The notes below the pieces were generated by a model that saw nothing but the letters and a program-made list of their open reading frames with translations, did not search any database and was not told the origin of the DNA. Source: an uncultured Caryophanales bacterium (GTDB lineage: Bacteria > Bacillota_I > Bacilli_A > RF39 > UBA660). Taken from it: a stretch of 61,567 nucleotides of DNA. A program made the translations under genes and the position numbers. Positions 54,800 to 61,042 of this stretch are shown piece by piece. Each line of letters starts with the position of its first letter. The stretch's first letter is position 1. Location of the stretch: NCBI GenBank assembly GCA_946611235.1, contig CAMODE010000050.1:1-61567 (forward strand), given 5' to 3'.

Positions 54800-55043
54800 A
54801 ATCAACATTTATCTTTACTAATTTATTATCTTCACCAAAAGAAGCTGCTTGTACAATAGTTCTAATAGCATTAATAGTTTTACCACTATGACCTATTACT
54901 TTAGCTACATCATCTTTTGATACCATAACTTCTATTAATAAAGTATTTTCTTCATCTGATTCAAATTCTTTTACTGATACACTATCGCTATCTTCAACAA
55001 GACCTTTAACGATTAATTCTGTTAAACTAACTAAATTATCCAT
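54792..55043 (-). CDS. khpA: KH-domain RNA-binding protein KhpA
   Basis: An 83-aa protein consisting of one KH domain, with VIGHSGKTINAIRTIVQAA carrying the GxxG loop (GHSG). It binds RNA, usually together with KhpB/Jag, and affects cell division and elongation. It lies directly after rpsP (sharing one base of stop and start), the normal order in Firmicutes. The usual rimM-trmD-rplS genes do not follow. Confidence 0.92.
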   Translation of the reverse strand: MDNLVSLTELIVKGLVEDSDSVSVKEFESDEENTLLIEVMVSKDDVAKVIGHSGKTINAIRTIVQAASFGEDNKLVKINVDSY

Positions 55044-55315
55044 TACTTACCTTGTTTTGCATTATGGAATTTTTCCATAATTCCTGCTTTACTTAATAAA
55101 TTTTTAACTGTATCAGTAGGGATTGCTCCATTATTTAACCATTTCATAGCTTTTTCTTCATCTATTTTAACTTCAGCTGGAGTAGTTAGTGGATTATAAG
55201 TACCCACTGTATCAATAAATCTTCCATCTCTAGGACTTCTTGAATCTGCTACTACTAAACGATAATATGGTGCTTTCTTTGCTCCCATTCTTTTAAGTCT
55301 TAATTTTACTGCCAT
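55043..55315 (-). CDS. rpsP: 30S ribosomal protein S16
   Basis: A 90-aa protein: [32 protein letters not shown] and a C-terminal [15 protein letters not shown], all standard S16. It is part of the 30S body. GAGGGAATATATAATG gives the start. Its promoter overlaps the terminator of the upstream surface-protein genes. Confidence 0.97.
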
Positions 55316-55411: not shown

Positions 55412-56038
55412 CTATGCAGTAAAGTCTACATATGCCTCTTCACCATTTTCACCTTCAAAAGTAATAGTACCATTATAAATTTTACTATAATCATCTGTTT
55501 GAGAATTATTAGTTTCTTCTAACCATATTACTAGATAATAGTCCTTACTTGTACTAGATAAATTTATACTTAAATTATTACTATTACTAGTCATATATAC
55601 TTTACCATTATTAGTATTAGATGGTGTTATTACATCACTAACTGCTGTAAAACTACTATCATATAATTGACACCTTATATCATTTGTAGTATATGTACTA
55701 TTTGTCGTTGTAATAGATGGTGTTAAACTTACAGTATCACCTGTATTAGAAAGAGTAATACTATATAATGAACAAACATCTCTTCCATTCTTATCAATAC
55801 ATTTATTTGTTTCTTTACTTATCGCAGTACCTACTAAGTTATCGGATAATGGTACTAAATTATTAGCCCTATATATAGTTGTTAGATTTATACTAGCTCC
55901 AAAATCAAATGTTCTACCTTCAATATTATCACCTGTATTATTAGCTACCGCTACAAAATAAGCAAGTGTTACTCCTAGTAATGATATTATTACTATTCCC
56001 ATTACGGCAAAAACAGATAATTCTACTTTTTTTCTCAT
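55412..56038 (-). CDS. TasA/CalY-like secreted surface protein 1
   Basis: A 208-aa protein with an N-terminal helix ending in LLGVTLAYFVA, a SipW-dependent-type signal peptide. The mature part is beta-rich (SITLSNTGDTVSLTPSIT) and ends in YLVIWLEETNN and a YNGTITFEG strand. It shares NLVPLSDN and a KCID...C segment with its neighbour, so the two are paralogues. Such proteins form extracellular fibres or matrix in Bacilli; no sipW is in view. Confidence 0.65.
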   Translation of the reverse strand: MRKKVELSVFAVMGIVIISLLGVTLAYFVAVANNTGDNIEGRTFDFGASINLTTIYRANNLVPLSDNLVGTAISKETNKCIDKNGRDVCSLYSITLSNTGDTVSLTPSITTTNSTYTTNDIRCQLYDSSFTAVSDVITPSNTNNGKVYMTSNSNNLSINLSSTSKDYYLVIWLEETNNSQTDDYSKIYNGTITFEGENGEEAYVDFTA

Positions 56039-56040
56039 AA

Positions 56041-56679
56041 TTACTTTTCACCCTCTTCTGTACCAGATATAGTTGATGATAATTTTTGTCCATAGATAGA
56101 ATTATATGTAATAGAGGCACTATACTTCCCACCAACATCTTCTTCTTGATGACGTTCTAAATCACTAAGCCATATTACTAGAGTAAATTTCTTTTTAGTA
56201 GGAATTCCTGTCTCTAAAGCACTATCTAATATAAAATTACTACCTAATGGCATACCATCAGTACTCTTTTCTATCTTAGTAATATTTTGATAAATTTCTT
56301 CATTTTCATCTAGTACTAGATAACTTAAATTAGAAATATGTTCAATATTAAAATCAATAGTACCAACAACATCCTGTTTAGCAGAATCATTTGTTACCTC
56401 AATATCATAGGCATCACAAGCCCCATTTCCATAGTCATCAACACATTTATTACGATATGCCCTCATGATATCAGAGTCCGCTAACGGAATAAGATTTTTT
56501 CCTGAATATTTTGATGCAACTTCAAGTTCTAATGTTAAATGTCCTGATTTAACATCTAAAGCATCATTATTAGATCTATCTCTAGCTGTAAAATAAGAAA
56601 ATGTTACACCAAATAGCATAATAATAAAACTAAATATATATATTGTTAATAATAAATATTTTTTATCTTTTGCCTTCAT
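56041..56679 (-). CDS. TasA/CalY-like secreted surface protein 2
   Basis: A 212-aa protein with the same plan as the gene two bases downstream: signal helix ending in LFGVTFSYFTARDRS, NLIPLADSD, KCVDDYGNGACDAYDIEVTN and TLVIWLSDLE. The four conserved features in both proteins mark a tandem duplication, although identity is low. It is probably co-transcribed with its paralogue. Confidence 0.65.
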   Translation of the reverse strand: MKAKDKKYLLLTIYIFSFIIMLFGVTFSYFTARDRSNNDALDVKSGHLTLELEVASKYSGKNLIPLADSDIMRAYRNKCVDDYGNGACDAYDIEVTNDSAKQDVVGTIDFNIEHISNLSYLVLDENEEIYQNITKIEKSTDGMPLGSNFILDSALETGIPTKKKFTLVIWLSDLERHQEEDVGGKYSASITYNSIYGQKLSSTISGTEEGEK

Positions 56680-57873: not shown

Positions 57874-58614
57874 TTAATAAAAGACATTTTTTAGGTATAA
57901 GCCTTCCGGTGAAGCTGTCTTGCCCGCTGACGACCTATCTTCTTTTTTTAAGATATCTATTATTTCTTCACTCTTTATTTTTCCTTCTCCGACCATAATT
58001 AATGTTCCTACCATATTTCGAACCATATATCTTAAAAAGCCAGTTCCGACAAAGATAAAAGTTATCTTATTTAGATTTTTAGGATCCCTTATTAAATTAG
58101 TTTGAGATATAGTACGTACATAATCATCTTTTTCTTCATCTACTTTTGTAAATGATTTAAAATTATGTTCTCCTTCTAAATATTTCATAGCTCTTTCCAT
58201 TTCAACAACATCTAATTTTTGATTATATTGACAAACATAATTTCTTTCTAGGGGGTTATATTCTCCCATATTTAGTTTATAAATATATTCTTTCCCAATA
58301 GCGGAAAATCTAGCATGAAAATCATCTGGTACTTCAGCACAATTTCTTACAAAGACATCCTCTGGTAAAAGAGAGTTTAATCCCTTACTTAATTTATCTA
58401 ATGGAATCTTCTTTTCTAAATCAAAATGAATTCTTTGAGCAATAGCATGAACTCCAGCATCAGTTCTACCTGAAGCATGAATATCTACTTTAACTCCGCC
58501 ATTTATTTCTTTTAAAGCCTTTTCTATTTCTCCTTGTACTGTTCTTTCTCTCGGTTGTTTTTGATACCCCTTAAAATTTGTTCCATCATAGGAAACTGTA
58601 ATTAAATATCTCAT
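57874..58614 (-). CDS. truA: tRNA pseudouridine(38-40) synthase TruA
   Basis: A 246-aa protein with the catalytic Asp in SGRTDAGVHAIAQRIHFD, HNFKSFTKVDEEKDDYVRTI and RYMVRNMVGTLIMVGEGK, all standard TruA motifs. It modifies U38-40 in the anticodon arm. It follows ecfT directly, as in many Firmicutes. Confidence 0.95.
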   Translation of the reverse strand: MRYLITVSYDGTNFKGYQKQPRERTVQGEIEKALKEINGGVKVDIHASGRTDAGVHAIAQRIHFDLEKKIPLDKLSKGLNSLLPEDVFVRNCAEVPDDFHARFSAIGKEYIYKLNMGEYNPLERNYVCQYNQKLDVVEMERAMKYLEGEHNFKSFTKVDEEKDDYVRTISQTNLIRDPKNLNKITFIFVGTGFLRYMVRNMVGTLIMVGEGKIKSEEIIDILKKEDRSSAGKTASPEGLYLKNVFY

Positions 58615-58627
58615 TATACTACCTCCA

Positions 58628-59353
58628 TCAATATATAATTACCACCACTAAAATAGCAATATTTAATATAAGAAGTAAAACTTCTTTAATACCAAATTTA
58701 TTTAATCGATAGTTAGTCCTCGACTTACCATATCCAAATAATTTTAATTTCATATCTATGGATATTAGATTTAATCTATTTATCGAATAATTAAATGATT
58801 TTATTATTATATTTTGATAATATTTTATCTTCTTACCTACTGAGTCTTTATTATTAAATCGCTCTTTATATATATTGTTAAATCGATCTAGTTCGTCTTT
58901 ATAGATAGTAGGAATCCTAAATAGCAATGCTGTATAAAGTATTACTTTACTATCTTTCTTAATACTAAAGGGATCTAATACTCTACCAATAGCATACATA
59001 GTCTCGTTAATAGTAGTAACATGCATAAATATTAAGATATATGTAATGATAAAGATAAACCTAAAGAGATCTCCTAGTAATATTTCTATTGGACTAAATG
59101 TAATAATATTAATAATTATAATAAAGAAGATAAAGTATTTGAAATAACTTATTTCTTTTAGAATTATTTTGATATTAATACCACTACTTACAAGGGTAAG
59201 GATTAAATAACTAAATAACATTATAACATCTTTATAACTATTTATAAAAATTGAACTAATTAACATTATAATTAAAAATATTAACTTTAATGTTGAATTA
59301 AGATTATGAGCTAAGGAATCTTCATTTATATATTTTCCAATACTATTTGACAT
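58628..59353 (-). CDS. ecfT: ECF transporter transmembrane protein EcfT
   Basis: A 241-aa protein with about five to six helices and a long cytoplasmic stretch. ALLFRIPTIYKDELDRFNNI and SINRLNLISIDMKLKLFGYG correspond to the two coupling helices with the short A-R-A/G-type motifs; they are diverged here. It connects the ATPases to vitamin-binding S components encoded elsewhere. It overlaps ecfA2 by 11 bases. Confidence 0.85.
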   Translation of the reverse strand: MSNSIGKYINEDSLAHNLNSTLKLIFLIIMLISSIFINSYKDVIMLFSYLILTLVSSGINIKIILKEISYFKYFIFFIIIINIITFSPIEILLGDLFRFIFIITYILIFMHVTTINETMYAIGRVLDPFSIKKDSKVILYTALLFRIPTIYKDELDRFNNIYKERFNNKDSVGKKIKYYQNIIIKSFNYSINRLNLISIDMKLKLFGYGKSRTNYRLNKFGIKEVLLLILNIAILVVVIIY

Positions 59354-60113
59354 TTCGATATATATCCTTCATTAATTCTTTGATGTCATATGTTATATCT
59401 AAAGAAATATTTTTCTTTTTTCTAGCAGTATTAATAAAATCAATTATCTTAGGTACTTGAAGGGATGAGCCTTCTAGTTTATCTGTTTCCTTTAATAAGT
59501 CTTTTTTATTTGAACTTGATATTAATTTGCCATTTTTTAATAATATATATTTATCACATACTTCATAAGAGAATAAAATATCACTAGTAAGTATTATTAA
59601 TGTTTTATGATACTCTTTTACTATCTTCTTAAATAGTTTAATTAGTATCTTCTTATGATAATCATCTAATTCTGGTAATTCATTTATGACTAATACTTTG
59701 GGATTAGTTACTAAGGCTATTCCTACTTTCAATAATATCTTTTCACCACCGGATATTTCATTAGGATTTAGATATTTGATATGATCATTTATTTTAAGCA
59801 TTTTAAAAACAAAATCTATTTTTTTATTGATTGTTTCTTCTTGATAATTACTTATAGGCAGTTTTAGTTCATCATAAACAGTATCACAAACAAAATCATT
59901 TTGATTATTGCTCATGTAACTTATCTTATTTTTACTATAACTACTTATTATTTCACCTTGATAATCATTTATTTTACCAGTAATTATTTTACCTAAGTAA
60001 TCTTTTTCTATTTCATCAGAAGAAAGAATAGTATATATTTTTCCTTCTTCAAATTCACAATCTATATCTTTTAATATTTTTTTATAGACTACTTTTTTTA
60101 GGGTTAGGGCCAT
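59343..60113 (-). CDS. ecfA2: ECF transporter ATPase 2, Walker A lost
   Basis: A 256-aa ABC ATPase. Where the P-loop should be, the sequence is ILSSDEIEKDYLGK, with no GxxGxGK[ST]. The signature ISGGEKILLKVG is kept, Walker B reads VLVINELPEL (D to N, E kept), and the H-loop reads LTSDI (no His). It cannot hold ATP on its own Walker A but can give its signature to the partner's site. The position (ecfA1-ecfA2-ecfT-truA) fixes its identity. Confidence 0.85.
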   Translation of the reverse strand: MALTLKKVVYKKILKDIDCEFEEGKIYTILSSDEIEKDYLGKIITGKINDYQGEIISSYSKNKISYMSNNQNDFVCDTVYDELKLPISNYQEETINKKIDFVFKMLKINDHIKYLNPNEISGGEKILLKVGIALVTNPKVLVINELPELDDYHKKILIKLFKKIVKEYHKTLIILTSDILFSYEVCDKYILLKNGKLISSSNKKDLLKETDKLEGSSLQVPKIIDFINTARKKKNISLDITYDIKELMKDIYRNVK

Positions 60114-60904
60114 AATTTATCTAAAGCCTCCTTATCTTTTAAGTATACTTGTTCTAGTAGATCATATAAGATAAGATTGTGAGATAGTTTTACAATAAAT
60201 GGTAAATTAAAGCCTATTTTTTCTAGTAAATCATCTTTATATATTTCTTTAGGAGATGCCTCTGCTAAAATGCTTCCTTTATTTAGAACTATTATTTTAT
60301 CTGAATCTAATGTTTCTTCTAAATCAGTTGTTAAGAGAATGATTGTTAAGTTGTAATCTTTTTGATATTCTTTTAATACTTTTAAAACTAGTTTCTTATC
60401 CATAGGGGTTAGTTTACTTAAAGTATTATCTAAAAGAATTATTCTTGGATTATGAATTAACGAAGCCGCTACTAAAACTTTATTTTTTTCTGATTGGGTA
60501 ATATCTTCTAATGATTTATCCAATATATTATCAATATGAAATTTTTTAGATACTTTATCTAAGGTTATATTTATTTCATTCTTAGTATATTGAAGACTTT
60601 CTAGAGGAAAGGCTAAACAGTCTCGAATAGTATCAAAGTATATATCGTTATCCATACATATACTAAAATTTCTTCTTATTTTATCAATAAAGAAATTATT
60701 TAAAAGATAGCCATCAATATTTATATATCCTTCACCTCTAATGATACCTGAAAGTAATTTGGCAAGAGTTGTCTTACCCGAGCCATTTAATCCTACAATG
60801 GTTGTAAAAGTTCCTTCATAAATATCTAGGTTAAGATTATCAAATATTATATTCTCTTGATATTTGAATGTTAAATCTCTTATTTTGATAATACTTCTTT
60901 TCAT
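60104..60904 (-). CDS. ecfA1: ECF transporter ATPase 1, signature motif lost
   Basis: 266 aa from MKRSIIK (GAGGGTG upstream). Walker A GLNGSGKTTLAKLL is intact. The signature reads DITQSEKNKVLVA in place of LSGGQ, Walker B reads IILLDNTLSKL (catalytic E replaced by N), and the H-loop reads LTTDLEE (no His). With EcfA2 it can form one composite ATP site: Walker A of EcfA1 with the signature of EcfA2. Confidence 0.88.
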   Translation of the reverse strand: MKRSIIKIRDLTFKYQENIIFDNLNLDIYEGTFTTIVGLNGSGKTTLAKLLSGIIRGEGYINIDGYLLNNFFIDKIRRNFSICMDNDIYFDTIRDCLAFPLESLQYTKNEINITLDKVSKKFHIDNILDKSLEDITQSEKNKVLVAASLIHNPRIILLDNTLSKLTPMDKKLVLKVLKEYQKDYNLTIILLTTDLEETLDSDKIIVLNKGSILAEASPKEIYKDDLLEKIGFNLPFIVKLSHNLILYDLLEQVYLKDKEALDKLWP

Positions 60905-61042
60905 ACCATGCACCCTCTTTTAATATTATATATTAAATAGTTGTAAAATACAAGGAAATAGATGTAAAATACTTGTCAATTAATATCTTAATATCTTGAT
61001 AAAACAAAATAATATGCTACAATAAGGATAGAGGTGGACAGT

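Follow-up and report, generated by a model that had tools for sequence, protein, structure and literature searches.

In ABC-type ATPase dimers, each composite ATP site combines the Walker A and Walker B motifs and the switch histidine of one subunit with the signature motif of the other. To our knowledge, ECF modules are known only as motors that burn ATP on behalf of S-components, and we know of no function outside transport for a solitary module. The group II EcfA-EcfA'-EcfT arrangement is represented by ECF-FolT2 of L. delbrueckii (PDB 7NNU; EcfA2, PDB 4MKI). In the L. delbrueckii ECF system, a Glu-to-Gln replacement in either ATPase alone abolishes both ATPase activity and transport, and the solitary module carrying the double mutation is ATP-bound and closed (PMC10368641). 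In Listeria, EetB-FmnA-EcfA-EcfA' is a FAD exporter that serves flavinylation by ApbE, with EetB (PF07456) as the FAD-export S-subunit (PMC9973259). Heterodimeric ABC exporters (TM287/288, ABCC/TAP type) combine one degenerate site with one consensus site, in which the catalytic Glu is kept.

The window, that is, the whole stretch of 61,567 nucleotides analysed here, comes from a genome of an uncultured Caryophanales bacterium of gut type (designated G000 below) and carries ecfA1, ecfA2, ecfT and then truA on its minus strand, the ORF positions showing that neighbouring ecf frames overlap (Table 1). An in-frame GTG lies further upstream of the ecfA1 start, at 60913. Both ATPases have the nucleotide-binding domain fold and the EcfA C-terminal domain, with TIGR04520/TIGR04521 as their best families. 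EcfA1 matches NCBIfam TIGR04520 over its full length with 169.6 bits (cut-off 315); both proteins fall below the curated NCBIfam cut-offs, as do the ATPases of sister species whose motors keep a catalytic site (hereafter live sisters). With its A1-A2-T order, its ATPase domains and its CbiQ-type EcfT, the module resembles the group II systems; it differs from them in having no complete ATPase site, and no S-component of the four families searched was found in its genome. The sequence-only reading of this DNA had described ecfT and truA as adjacent and intact. Their frames are indeed open, and truA lies immediately 3' of ecfT in 60 of 64 loci, but EcfT itself is divergent: it scores 32.7 bits against Pfam CbiQ (PF02361, cut-off 25), that is, 33 against 92 bits for the sister G005, and of the two XRX coupling-helix arginines, as aligned, the first is present (YKERF) and the second is replaced by Lys (KLKLFGYG). 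Elsewhere in the window, at 55412-56679 on the minus strand, two adjacent small exported proteins, alike in layout and TasA/camelysin-like by eye, sit between an rpsP-like gene (55043-55315) and the ecf region.

Table 1. Genes of the ecf locus and ATP-site motifs of its two ATPases (positions in the window)
Feature	Positions	Strand	Description	Basis
ecfA1	60104..60904	minus	ECF ATPase subunit, 266 aa from ATG 60904	ORF; TIGR04520
EcfA1 Walker A	60767..60793	minus	GLNGSGKTT, intact	motif reading and alignment
EcfA1 signature position	60479..60502	minus	ITQSEKNK replaces LSGGQKQR	motif reading and alignment
EcfA1 Walker B	60425..60442	minus	IILLDN; Mg-binding Asp retained, catalytic Glu replaced by Asn	motif reading and alignment
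EcfA1 H-loop	60326..60328	minus	LLTTD; switch His replaced by Thr	motif reading and alignment
ecfA2	59343..60113	minus	second ATPase subunit, 256 aa, overlapping the ecfA1 end	ORF; structure match
EcfA2 Walker A position	59997..60023	minus	SSDEIEKDY; P-loop lost (expected GxxGxGKST)	alignment and model
EcfA2 signature	59733..59756	minus	ISGGEKIL, retained	motif reading and alignment
EcfA2 Walker B	59679..59696	minus	VLVINE; Asp replaced by Asn, Glu retained	motif reading and alignment
EcfA2 H-loop	59583..59585	minus	ILTSD; switch His replaced by Ser	motif reading and alignment
ecfT	58628..59353	minus	membrane subunit, 241 aa, divergent, overlapping the ecfA2 end	ORF; Pfam CbiQ
truA	57874..58614	minus	downstream neighbour	ORF; rate yardstick

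The motif register was checked by aligning about 100 operons and by comparison with AlphaFold models (pLDDT 94 for EcfA1, 92 for EcfA2). Alignment and models agree and reveal no register error: EcfA1 retains Walker A and has ITQSEKN for LSGGQ, and EcfA2 retains SGGE and has lost Walker A, as had been read from the sequence. The EcfA1 model shows a normal P-loop (strand, 6-residue loop, helix), and that of EcfA2, whose best solved relative is EcfA2 4mki_B (TM 0.85), passes from strand to helix through a 3-residue turn at the same position. To the motifs already listed we add the loss of the EcfA2 Walker B Asp (N-E for D-E). A complete hydrolysis site (Walker A, Walker B D-E, signature and His) is absent from both composite sites. 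Site 1, formed by EcfA1 and the EcfA2 signature, retains its ATP-binding residues without Glu or His, and site 2, formed by EcfA2 and the EcfA1 signature, has lost both halves. The motifs thus support the earlier proposal that site 1 alone could bind ATP, and confirm that this candidate site lacks the general base (D-N) and that neither H-loop has its His. Judged by these motifs, the motor could at most hold ATP and would never burn it. Because the same motif state recurs in the sisters G010, G007 and G001 and in other genera, it is not a product of chance or sequencing error.

We compared G000 with ten other genomes of its genus, plus G032. The ecfA1-A2-T operon is present in all ten and in G032, and the EcfA1 signature is lost in every member of the genus (e.g. 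LNxSEK). Site 1 is otherwise intact in G002, G003, G005, G006, G008 and G009 (EcfA1 Walker A, D-E and His, with EcfA2 LSSGE); G004 has Asp at the position of the EcfA1 catalytic Glu. The window's species, G010, G007 and G001 form one clade (SH-aLRT 100) in which the EcfA1 Glu, the EcfA1 His and the EcfA2 P-loop are gone, the EcfA1 Walker A of G007 falling beyond the contig end. Whether relatives share the losses, a question raised by the sequence-only reading, thus receives a divided answer: the dead state is common to these four sister species, but six of the seven sister species outside the subclade keep the EcfA1-side site intact. As site 2 is degenerate throughout the genus and catalysis at site 1 was lost in the subclade only, the loss was stepwise. 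G005, G009 and other live sisters have one degenerate and one consensus catalytic site, in the manner of the heterodimeric ABC exporters; the window's module, in contrast, has no consensus site. In G001 (L030, 3198-3995) EcfA1 is eroded further, to GPNGSGKKT and LLTKS, with the Walker A Ser/Thr and the Walker B Asp lost, and there even ATP binding looks to have disappeared.

The partners of the motor have changed as well. G000, about 92% complete, has a single EcfT, and searches for an additional EcfA-type ATPase that extends into the EcfA C-terminal domain, or for the second ecfAA' pair that had been suggested as a possibility, found none in it. The four S-component families searched (PF12822, PF07155, PF07456 and PF09515) are absent from this genome; since PF12822 does find the FolT-type S-components of the window's family, its absence here is informative. 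An S-component of 170 aa belonging to PF07456 (EetB) is widespread in the family and is encoded beside a NusG_II protein and ApbE. EetB and ApbE co-occur in G002, G005, G006, G009 and G032; relatives in the genus that have both genes retain a catalytic site, and EetB is the only S-component found for the motor of the sister species. Live sisters of the same genus share with the Listeria exporter an EetB homologue beside ApbE and one ecfA1-A2-T operon, and we infer that their operons export FAD. The window's subclade differs in lacking both partners: EetB was not found in the drafts of G000, G001, G007 and G010, either with Pfam or with a family-specific profile whose positive control worked, and ApbE was not found in these four genomes either. 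G003, G004 and G008 are likewise without EetB and ApbE, two of them being very incomplete genomes. The flanks of eetB in the sisters have no match in the window, where no empty eetB site was seen. The sequence-only reading had considered the locus an unusual energy-coupling module. The losses on which it relied are real, but with EetB and ApbE absent from the subclade the motor has no detected cargo subunit, so that a modified cycle of an energy-coupling module no longer describes it.

Across the wider family, the alignment of about 100 operons contains every stage from canonical to unrecognisable. EetB status is known for 58 operons, and at least one complete catalytic site is present in 31/31 operons with EetB against 15/27 without it (Fisher p 2e-5, a value that overstates the evidence because there are too few independent phylogenetic pairs). 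Such pairs point in the same direction (2.5 to 0 of 7) but do not reach significance at this number. Of the 31 EetB-containing operons, 17 (e.g. L033-L037, L040, L045) have one complete ATP site and no second, which suggests that ECF motors with a single working site exist in nature, even though the L. delbrueckii module is inactivated by a single Glu mutation. Forty-four operons have no complete site, a state that requires at least seven changes on a tree that comes from a quick search and leaves 25 branches open. On the same tree, replacement of the EcfA1 catalytic Glu by Asn accounts for at least nine changes, and losses number 2 for the EcfA1 P-loop, 12 for the EcfA2 P-loop and 13 for the EcfA1 Glu. 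A mirror state occurs in g79, g91, g98, G065 and G107, where the EcfA1 P-loop is deleted and the EcfA2 P-loop Lys and D-E are mostly retained; we do not claim a general rule pairing EcfA1 P-loop loss with EcfA2 signature loss, since it comes down to essentially one clade and 2 changes.

The frames are open in each of the 44 dead operons. EcfA1 is short in three, being cut by contig ends in two of them and having lost an N-terminal part in the third (G065). The operon is dead and open in every sampled species of g131 (5 species), g91 (5), g69 (6), g98 (4), g79 (4), and g81, g101 and g54 (3 each). Parsimony places the death of the motor before the split of G000 and G010. Between these two, dN/dS is 0.17 for ecfA1, 0.20 for ecfA2 and 0.26 for ecfT (p below 1e-13) and 0.03 for truA, our yardstick for the evolutionary rates of the ECF genes; these ratios are rough, because dS is near 1.5. 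The three pairs that can be drawn from G000, G010 and G007 give ECF values between 0.17 and 0.38, and in the close dead pair G393-G103 (g91, dS 0.11) dN/dS pooled over the three genes is 0.10 (p 4e-20). Protein identity in the dead clade is 91% for TruA, 62% for EcfA1, 52% for EcfA2 and 50% for EcfT, against 83.5, 71, 66 and 65% in the live sisters, so that, with TruA as the reference, divergence of the ECF proteins is about threefold faster in the dead clade. That decay is not obvious, as first noted, thus holds for the persistence of purifying selection but not for this acceleration. With neither broken frames nor dN/dS near 1, the dead motors are not plain pseudogenes.

Residue conservation was assessed in the 26 operons that lack the EcfA2 P-loop and the EcfA1 Glu; an intact EcfA1 P-loop was not required, because that condition would be circular for the P-loop columns. 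In EcfA1, the Walker B Asp reaches 0.97 (top 1% of columns), the P-loop Gly 0.90 and the Lys 0.80; in the EcfA2 signature, Ser reaches 0.87 and Glu 1.00. The position of the catalytic Glu is mostly Asn (0.67), and the His positions of EcfA1 and EcfA2 are near the median. This pattern suggests that one site still binds ATP but does not hydrolyse it. Within the dead clade, EcfA2 is most conserved at its C-terminal tail, DIKELMKDIYRNV, where 94% of the last 16 columns are invariant, partly because of the overlap with the ecfT start.

We propose the following course of events. The ancestor would have been a motor whose only S-component detected in the sister species is EetB. Comparison indicates that the A2-side site degenerated first, genus-wide, through loss of the A1 signature and weakening of the A2 P-loop, the A1-side site staying catalytic where EetB is present. 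The window's subclade would then have lost eetB and apbE, as their absence from four draft genomes suggests. The remaining site lost its Glu (to Asn) and switch His, and EcfA2 its P-loop; after this loss the three frames stayed open under purifying selection. The conservation pattern suggests that the remaining composite site still binds ATP and Mg without hydrolysis, so that the complex would rest in one nucleotide-bound state, as does the engineered 2EQ module (PDB 8BMS; PMC10368641). With 2EQ the window's module shares the lack of an S-component and of a catalytic Glu, and the expected holding of ATP; it differs in being natural, in having Asn rather than Gln in place of Glu, in having a single site of two that could bind ATP, and in the loss of both His. 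The reading we favour is that of a naturally occurring relative of the ATP-locked ECF motor. The locked membrane complex may have been retained for a role outside transport, for instance ATP-dependent assembly or a membrane scaffold, and as to the reason for its retention we would guess first at a static membrane complex that depends on ATP and has found new partners. From the sequence, we give about even credence to a dead, solitary ECF motor that holds ATP without turning it over and has a non-transport role. As the dead state arose at least seven times in the family, a disabled motor probably has another use; more tentatively, and with somewhat less than even confidence, these seven or more lineages may form a recurrent natural class in which a vitamin or FAD motor became a nucleotide-held membrane complex with a selected non-transport function.

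The main rival is slow decay, in which the loss of EetB and ApbE left the motor useless and erosion begins with its catalytic motifs; the frames would simply not be broken yet, possibly preserved by the overlaps at the gene starts and by a transcript shared with truA. The threefold acceleration of the ECF genes in the dead subclade, the graded series from canonical to unrecognisable operons and the loss of nearly every motif in G001 are in keeping with it; the acceleration and the lost binding residues of G001 also count against a selected dead module, as does the retention of the other subunit's P-loop in the mirror (mode II) lineages. EcfT, moreover, was not detected in 240 of 388 family genomes, as expected if dead modules end up being lost. 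Yet dN/dS stays at 0.10-0.26 in the key pairs, which diverged entirely after the loss, and at 0.17-0.38 over the subclade pairs, and drift would bring many stops into such AT-rich sequence, whereas 44 of 44 dead operons are open, from at least seven origins that include every sampled species of genera with three to six species. Where the EcfA2 P-loop is lost, moreover, the ATP-binding residues of site 1 outrank most columns in conservation. We regard slow decay as possible but on the unlikely side.

A module that is still a transporter appears improbable. It would need an S-component of another family (BioY, QueT, YkoE or a new one), with transport driven by ATP binding or by slow hydrolysis with Asn. 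The searched families and the incompleteness of G000 leave room for such a partner, and some relatives without EetB are near-canonical (G145, G174, G033), so that other partners may exist in the family; but the four families searched gave nothing in G000, single Glu mutants of ECF transporters have neither ATPase activity nor transport (PMC10368641), and both switch His are lost as well. Still far less credible is an artefact, be it an assembly gap, a chimeric contig or a mis-set motif register. All genomes are drafts, the window's assembly consists of 62 contigs, and two of the four subclade genomes are 73-75% complete, but the same motifs and gene order are found in four separately assembled species, the state recurs in other genera, and alignment and structure models confirm the register. 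Incompleteness alone is unlikely to have removed eetB-apbE from all four genomes, the product of the missing fractions being about 8e-4.

A solitary, catalytically dead module raises the question of the purpose of a motor without cargo or fuel use. Such modules would be nature's parallel to the ATP-locked module made by engineering, and a natural gradation within one family, with two-site, one-site and dead solitary motors, would reveal which parts of the cycle transport needs. In genomes of this kind, the presence of an ECF transporter does not mean that vitamin uptake is possible, and surveys based on Pfam undercount ECF operons. Several EcfTs of dead operons were missed by Pfam and detected by family profiles only, and every profile-only EcfT locus of sufficient length has EcfA1-EcfA2 upstream in overlapping frames; in L156-L165 and L197-L228, EcfT is too divergent for Pfam CbiQ. 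EcfT-like matches with an in-frame TAA, tried as candidate broken copies, turned out to come from another transporter, a complete S-A-T system in which the frame stops at that codon. A separate complete ECF operon is found at L237-L242 (G393, G328, G159, G362, G339, G220), encoding one EcfA, whose Walker A is intact, an S-component of the FolT family and an EcfT of about 190 aa unseen by Pfam; in G393 and G220 an operon of this type occurs alongside a dead EcfA1-A2-T module.
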